50,666 nucleotides of DNA from Actinomycetota bacterium (GTDB lineage: Bacteria > Actinomycetota > Thermoleophilia > Gaiellales > Gaiellaceae), in contig VAXO01000090.1 of NCBI GenBank assembly GCA_005888435.1, positions 1-50,666 on the forward strand, read 5' to 3'. Under the pieces are notes generated by a model. That model saw nothing but the letters and a program-made list of their open reading frames with translations, had not been told where the DNA came from and searched no databases. A program made the translations under genes and the position numbers. Positions 11,493 through 14,407 of this stretch are shown in pieces. Each line of letters begins with the position of its first letter. The stretch's first letter is position 1.

Positions 11493-11572
11493 GTTAAAGG
11501 GGTTCGGTCGCGCGGGACTCTAGAGCCTCCGTCGGACGGCCGCCTGACGAGCGCCGCCGATAACTGACACCA

Positions 11573-14129: not shown

Positions 14130-14369
14130 CTACGGGAGCACGAGGCGCTGCCCCGGCACGAGCGTGGTGTCCGTGAGGTGGTTACGTTTCTGAAGCTCCC
14201 AGATCCCCTCACGCGGGTCGCCCGGATAGTGCTTCGCGGCGATCGACCACAGCGTGTCGGTCGGCTGAACGACGTAGCGAACGGGCTTGCCTGCGCTCCC
14301 TGAGGGGCGAGCTGCAAGGCCCACCGCGAGCGCAGCGGCCAGGACGAGGATGGCGAGTCGGACGAACAT
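14130..14369 (-). CDS. LysM membrane protein, candidate SOS-induced cell-division suppressor
   Basis: A 79-residue protein: hydrophobic signal/anchor segment at about 4-20 (LAILVLAAALAVGLAA), then one LysM domain at about 30-78 with VVQPTDTLWSIAAKHYPGDP and LVPGQRLVLP. LysM binds peptidoglycan, so it should sit outside the membrane. Size, layout and two perfect LexA boxes in its promoter match the role of Bacillus YneA, Corynebacterium DivS and Mycobacterium ChiZ (Rv2719c): small membrane proteins, LysM-bearing in YneA and ChiZ, that delay division after DNA damage. Sequence homology beyond LysM is not established here. It lies downstream of, and codirectional with, the phosphoesterase gene. 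Confidence 0.8.
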   Translation of the reverse strand: MFVRLAILVLAAALAVGLAARPSGSAGKPVRYVVQPTDTLWSIAAKHYPGDPREGIWELQKRNHLTDTTLVPGQRLVLP

Positions 14370-14376
14370 GCGTTCG
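14363..14376 (-). promoter_or_regulatory. LexA (SOS) box 2, overlapping the start codon
   Basis: CGAACGCATGTTCG matches the Gram-positive LexA box core CGAAC-RNRY-GTTCG exactly on the minus strand. The ATG of the LysM gene lies inside it. Its centre is 22 bp (about two helical turns) from the centre of box 1. Confidence 0.75.
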
Positions 14377-14377
14377 C

Positions 14378-14407
14378 ATGCTACCGAACACCTGTTCGCC
14401 CTGTCAA
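14378..14407 (-). promoter_or_regulatory. SOS promoter of the LysM gene with LexA box 1
   Basis: Consensus -35 TTGACA (14402-14407) and -10 TAGCAT (14378-14383) are separated by 18 bp. CGAACAGGTGTTCG (14385-14398), a perfect LexA box, fills the spacer, so LexA would exclude RNA polymerase. The -10 is 8 bp from the ATG, predicting a leaderless transcript. Confidence 0.8.

Follow-up and report, generated by a model that had tools for sequence, protein, structure and literature searches.

The window analysed here is the whole stretch of 50,666 nucleotides, a contig from a member of the Gaiellaceae (Actinomycetota, Thermoleophilia). On its minus strand lies a small gene for a protein with a LysM domain, hereafter the LysM gene, preceded by a promoter in which two LexA boxes are embedded. 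The features of this locus are the following:

14130-14369, minus strand: open reading frame of a YneA/ChiZ-like protein of 79 aa, with a predicted N-terminal membrane helix and a C-terminal LysM domain (ORF, Pfam, NCBIfam YneA)
14133-14276, minus strand: LysM domain, residues 32-79 (Pfam PF01476, AlphaFold model, PDB matches)
14313-14366, minus strand: predicted membrane helix, residues 2-19 (AlphaFold, block pLDDT 84-88; hydropathy)
14367-14369, minus strand: start codon ATG (ORF reading)
14363-14376, no strand assigned: proximal LexA box CGAACGCATGTTCG, containing the start codon (perfect match, in a register common to nearly all orthologues)
14378-14383, minus strand: -10 element TAGCAT, between the two LexA boxes (sequence)
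14385-14398, no strand assigned: distal LexA box CGAACAGGTGTTCG, in the -35/-10 spacer (perfect match, conserved in orthologues)
14402-14407, minus strand: -35 element TTGACA (sequence)

The initial annotation had described a 79-residue protein with one membrane helix and one LysM domain, and this description is borne out by the open reading frame, by Pfam (LysM, PF01476, residues 32-79, E 1.1e-11, 45 bits for a cut-off of 20.9), by hydropathy (mean of about 2.5 over residues 1-20, indicative of an N-terminal hydrophobic helix) and by the AlphaFold model (mean pLDDT 82), in which a helix predicted at residues 2-19 is followed by a weak linker and a LysM fold made of the elements E30-33, H40-47, H52-63 and E75-78. 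LysM domains are the top PDB matches to this model (rmsd about 1.5 A, best E 1.3e-3). Almost nothing precedes the predicted helix, the N-terminus reading MFVR directly before it, and this helix may either remain uncleaved, as an anchor, or act as a cleavable signal sequence.

The promoter has the form announced in the initial annotation, with TTGACA and TAGCAT separated by 18 bp on the minus strand, and the two perfect CGAAC-N4-GTTCG boxes are also where they had been placed, one within the spacer and the other across the start codon, 22 bp apart; they are the only perfect matches in the window. A scan of the 2.45-Mb genome with the LexA motif, which had been proposed as a check, returned nine perfect sites, two of them at the LysM gene, versus four for the reversed control pattern. 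Furthermore, the tandem pattern GAAC-N4-GTTC-N6..20-GAAC-N4-GTTC is found once in this genome, at the LysM gene, and its reversed control not at all. As putative LexA boxes, the pair at the LysM gene is far beyond chance. Because the start codon, within the proximal box, comes only 8-9 nt after the -10 element, the mRNA is probably leaderless or near-leaderless, the spacing placing the transcription start some 0-3 nt ahead of the ATG. Joint transcription with the metallophosphoesterase gene upstream was considered and is not favoured, because the LysM gene has a promoter of its own and this neighbour is not found in many relatives. The start codon of dinB in the same genome (L003, 1501-1514) is likewise covered by a perfect LexA box, placed in an identical register (CGAACAT-ATG-TTCG).

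An orthologue of the LysM gene was found in 92 of the 103 genomes of the window's family (f1), which represent 33 of 34 genera. Ninety upstream regions were read, two of which (L028 and L131) are cut by contig ends, so that 88 are informative. Loss of the boxes upstream of orthologues had been named beforehand as one of the outcomes that would refute the proposal; at least two exact GAAC-N4-GTTC boxes (two or three) are present in 78 of the 88 regions, two more (L027 and L092) have one exact box and a proximal box with one mismatch, and the remaining eight keep the proximal box alone. The proximal box begins at position -6 and encloses the start codon (ATG or GTG), and residue 2 is Phe, encoded by TTC, in 88 of 89 orthologues, as a by-product of this overlap; in the single exception (L100) the box is identical and the start codon was assigned by the script 6 nt downstream. 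The promoter is likewise maintained, with a -35 element reading TTGACA in 75 and TTGACG in 4 of the 90 regions (79 together), a spacer of mostly 17-18 bp and a gap of 8-9 nt between the -10 element and the start codon in 84 of 90, while a crude string test detected a Shine-Dalgarno-like string before the start codon in 3 of 90. At the scale of the family, 86 of the 103 genomes contain the tandem pattern, in most cases a single time, versus 3 for the reversed control. The distance between both boxes varies from 21 to 26 bp, and helical phasing as a rule was rejected on this ground; two independent road-blocks are likelier than a phased LexA-LexA contact because of this variation. Upstream of their LysM gene, three genomes of genus g30 (L126, L127 and L128) bear an additional, third LexA box, at -50. 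Tandem boxes of a second kind were also encountered, namely before an imuB-like gene (named by eye) at L173 (G071:C7), with further matches in G047, G048, G055, G075, G080 and G081.

The same box marks a wider set of genes in this lineage. lexA was detected in 85 of the 103 family genomes, and exactly one exact box lies upstream of it in all 30 family loci read. In G000, G038 and G045, perfect boxes precede uvrA, a dnaQ-uvrC gene, dinB and an imuB-like gene as well as lexA, the imuB-like gene and some other LexA-box genes being named by eye from sequence. In G038, a genome in a single contig, the LysM gene owns two of the eight perfect LexA sites. Since orthologues retain both boxes in their upstream regions, and lexA and repair genes share the same box, the predicted control of the LysM gene by LexA is strongly supported. 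One could instead take the boxes for chance palindromes or for the sites of another regulator, and the gene for a constitutive wall protein, considering that GC-rich genomes yield some CGAAC-N4-GTTCG sites by chance, as the four control matches for nine sites here illustrate; this reading is hardly tenable in front of tandem boxes in 86 genomes for 3 control matches, a register fixed relative to both promoter and start codon, and an identical box before lexA and uvrA. About 113 bp separate a SigH-like sigma factor gene from a perfect LexA box that precedes it (L002, 1501-1514), and SOS control of this sigma factor is possible.

The initial annotation had further stated that the LysM gene is not next to lexA. 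This part of the description is unreadable in the window's own assembly, which is 88.75% complete and in which a TIGR00498 search found no lexA, and it holds in G038, where the single contig carries lexA at 365 kb and, 850 kb away, the LysM gene at 1215 kb. A PF01726 match in the window's genome (C43) was examined as a candidate lexA and rejected, as its 347-aa frame looks like HrcA and TIGR00498 finds none.

A profile search over 399 genomes of the class gave a match in 127, of which 92 belong to the family, 20 to the sister families f2 and f3, 14 to f6, a family outside the window's order (sister order), and one is marginal. In f2 and f3 the arrangement is that of the window, with two boxes and the start codon in the proximal one in 19 of 20 orthologues, and in one f2 genome (G248) about 308 kb of a single contig separate the LysM gene from lexA. 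The f6 orthologue has no LexA box of its own; its helix starts 331-463 bp downstream of lexA, on the same strand, in all 13 loci with lexA, and in all 13 the lexA-LysM unit is preceded by two boxes 28-29 bp apart. Among the f1, f2, f3 and f6 loci examined, the LysM gene adjoins lexA in f6 only. The putative double operator thus travels with the LysM gene, with two boxes before the f6 lexA-LysM unit, one before the f1 lexA and two before the LysM genes of f1 to f3. The f6 proteins, such as L228 and L229, have in addition an Arg-rich N-terminal tail of about 55 residues (with a start codon chosen by the analyst). The simplest history would be that of a lexA-linked ancestor, followed by relocation of the gene in the window's order together with loss of the tail, a direction that we infer. 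Genes of the yneA/chiZ type in Bacillus and Mycobacterium sit beside lexA. A search of named genomes with the window protein gave only two distant relatives. The first, from Cellulomonas phragmiteti (L042), is a 191-aa open frame divergent from lexA, 47% identical over residues 25-79, with YneA as its sole NCBIfam match (31 bits); the second (L041, 5001-5096), 53% identical over residues 25-60, comes from a record titled Succinivibrio MAG, a bin that may be mixed.

YneA is also the best NCBIfam family for the window protein (NF010723/PRK14125, E 6.1e-9), with an alignment covering profile positions 10-85 of 87, hence nearly full length. With 35.7 bits for a cut-off of 60, the window protein fails the curated YneA equivalog test. 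The model matches all 39 orthologues scanned, every score listed being below this cut-off, and it is the best family for the f2, f3 and f6 orthologues scanned, with 40-48 bits, again below 60; it gave no match to two other LysM proteins from the family's genomes. Both YneA of Bacillus subtilis, a bitopic and SOS-regulated protein, and the window protein are very small, with one N-terminal helix and one LysM domain, and with a LexA-box promoter, helix and promoter control being predicted in the present case. The window gene differs from yneA in that it is not beside lexA, has a double-operator promoter of its own with the start codon inside the operator, and belongs to a different lineage. In YneA, the helix reaches FtsW (FtsW TM7) and the LysM domain serves to stop septal synthesis. 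The Asp-Thr pair of this domain (D46 and T47) is needed for peptidoglycan/glycan binding and toxicity (PMC13396833). Its counterpart in the window protein, matched by motif, is D38-T39, which is at least 90% conserved in orthologues. The initial annotation had proposed a counterpart of the YneA/ChiZ-type inhibitors; the YneA match, the lexA linkage in the sister order and the domain layout support the kinship, and the division block is put forward by analogy.

Altogether, the LysM gene is likely to be a relocated and minimal SOS division inhibitor of the YneA kind, division arrest being the part expected from the analogy. LysM is a general peptidoglycan-binding, cell-wall module, and because it is so generic another wall-related SOS function is possible. 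Under such a reading, the gene would be a true SOS gene whose product guards or remodels the wall during repair, by holding or modulating a wall hydrolase or by slowing the separation of daughter cells, with no stop of division. LexA control is equally strong under both readings, and no partner gene points to a target, as the neighbours of the LysM gene (SnoaL, metallophosphoesterase and M29 peptidase) give no link to division. Against it, all members are matched by the YneA model, which does not recognise other LysM proteins, and both the f6 orthologue and the Cellulomonas relative are linked to lexA, as in the layout of yneA and chiZ. This leaves a role of this type rather unlikely, though worth bearing in mind.

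ChiZ offers the other point of comparison. This protein of Mycobacterium tuberculosis (Rv2719c) is a damage-induced LysM membrane protein (PMC3989709) of 165 aa, with a disordered, Arg-rich cytoplasmic tail of 64 residues and a long linker (PMC7355643), and it is reported to act by its tail and helix, the LysM domain being dispensable (PMC7355643, PMC3989709). Both ChiZ and the window protein have a single helix followed by LysM, according to the topology that we infer here. However, the latter has 79 aa instead of 165 and lacks both the 64-residue tail and the long linker; the f6 orthologues resemble ChiZ by their Arg-rich tail, seen only in that family, and by their lexA linkage. An inhibitor of the ChiZ type, acting via FtsI/FtsQ instead of FtsW with a dispensable LysM domain, could thus appeal to the ChiZ-like cytoplasmic tail of these sister-order proteins. 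Yet tail and helix suffice for ChiZ (PMC7355643), whereas in the window protein almost nothing stands before the helix and the LysM motif is the best-conserved part among orthologues, and we regard this mode of action as quite improbable. Because the window protein lacks the ChiZ tail, a YneA-like action is expected, and it probably works like YneA. DivS of Corynebacterium and SosA of Staphylococcus are also small SOS-induced division inhibitors (PMC3989709, PMC6851548), like the role proposed here; SosA is devoid of LysM domain (PMC13396833) and DivS has no significant homology to YneA (PMC3989709).

For the YneA-like inhibitor, the following course of events can be proposed. In undamaged cells, a first LexA dimer would occupy the spacer between -35 and -10 and a second would cover the start codon together with the transcription start, which would exclude RNA polymerase at two places. 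Upon damage, RecA-triggered cleavage of LexA would free both boxes and allow the induction of a leaderless or near-leaderless mRNA. The protein would be inserted through its only helix, the LysM domain facing outwards, and, by analogy with YneA, this helix may dock on the synthase of septal peptidoglycan, which is FtsW in Bacillus, and the LysM domain bind nascent glycan, so that septum synthesis would halt until repair. If this is true, the YneA-type checkpoint extends beyond the cases described so far and can do without lexA linkage as well as without a ChiZ tail, and this natural 79-residue form provides a compact tool for studying how a helix and a LysM domain stop septal synthesis. In the open-access literature searched, we found no paper joining LexA, SOS and Thermoleophilia, and those combining LexA and Gaiella are on other topics judging by their titles.

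In part of the family the promoter has another form. Seven genomes from six genera have GTCCG-N-TAnnnT in place of the distal box and TTGACA, and this PafBC-like motif is present upstream of 7 of the 10 orthologues lacking two exact boxes versus none of the 78 having them. Six of these seven genomes were included in a recA tree, where they form one clade (support 96/93). The spacing of the motif before the LysM gene equals that of the mycobacterial recA P1 consensus, tTGTCRgtg-8 nt-TAnnnT, which is PafBC dependent (PMC5656591), and the rv2719c (chiZ) operon of M. tuberculosis is itself reported as PafBC regulated (PMC8151990). Over 12 genomes (L239-L268), the pattern CCGTCCGA-N9/10-TAnnnT has 49 matches versus 2 for the reversed control, i.e., an enrichment of about 25-fold, and it precedes recJ, rmuC, lexA, recA, the gene of a B12-dependent ribonucleotide reductase, pyrR, an FtsL-like gene and the LysM gene. 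Furthermore, G000 and G038 encode a fused PafBC-like protein with two WYL and two WCX domains, its PafC helix-turn-helix scoring below the cut-off. PafBC may be what acts at this motif, and the genes that it precedes constitute a candidate second DNA-damage regulon in the lineage. The motif at recA was set aside and not counted as independent evidence, because, while present in many genomes, it is located inside the end of the upstream coding frame.

These data suggest a history of the operator for which the arguments appear to us about evenly balanced. The double operator would be that of the division inhibitor and not that of lexA: on leaving the lexA operon, the inhibitor gene would have kept or regained two boxes, one of them merged with the start codon of a leaderless mRNA, and lexA would have retained a single box. 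One clade would then have been rewired, a PafBC-like promoter replacing the distal box and the -35 element and turning double repression into activation plus repression. Such a rewiring, if true, would also testify to a second damage regulon, of the PafBC type, in the lineage. A double operator fused to a start codon, together with its PafBC-like replacement in one clade, would amount to a natural experiment, in which one could see why control must be stricter for a division inhibitor that is potentially lethal than for repair genes.

Two other occurrences of the PafBC-like motif are worth mentioning. In the window itself, the motif CCGTCCGACGGAGGCTCTAGAGT lies on the minus strand at 11517-11539, 53 bp before pyrR of the pyr operon; it may be due to chance, because it was unseen before pyrR among the matches followed in other genomes. 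In L259, L260 and L267, a small protein with no NCBIfam match (checked on L259), of about 80 aa, is encoded near the motif.
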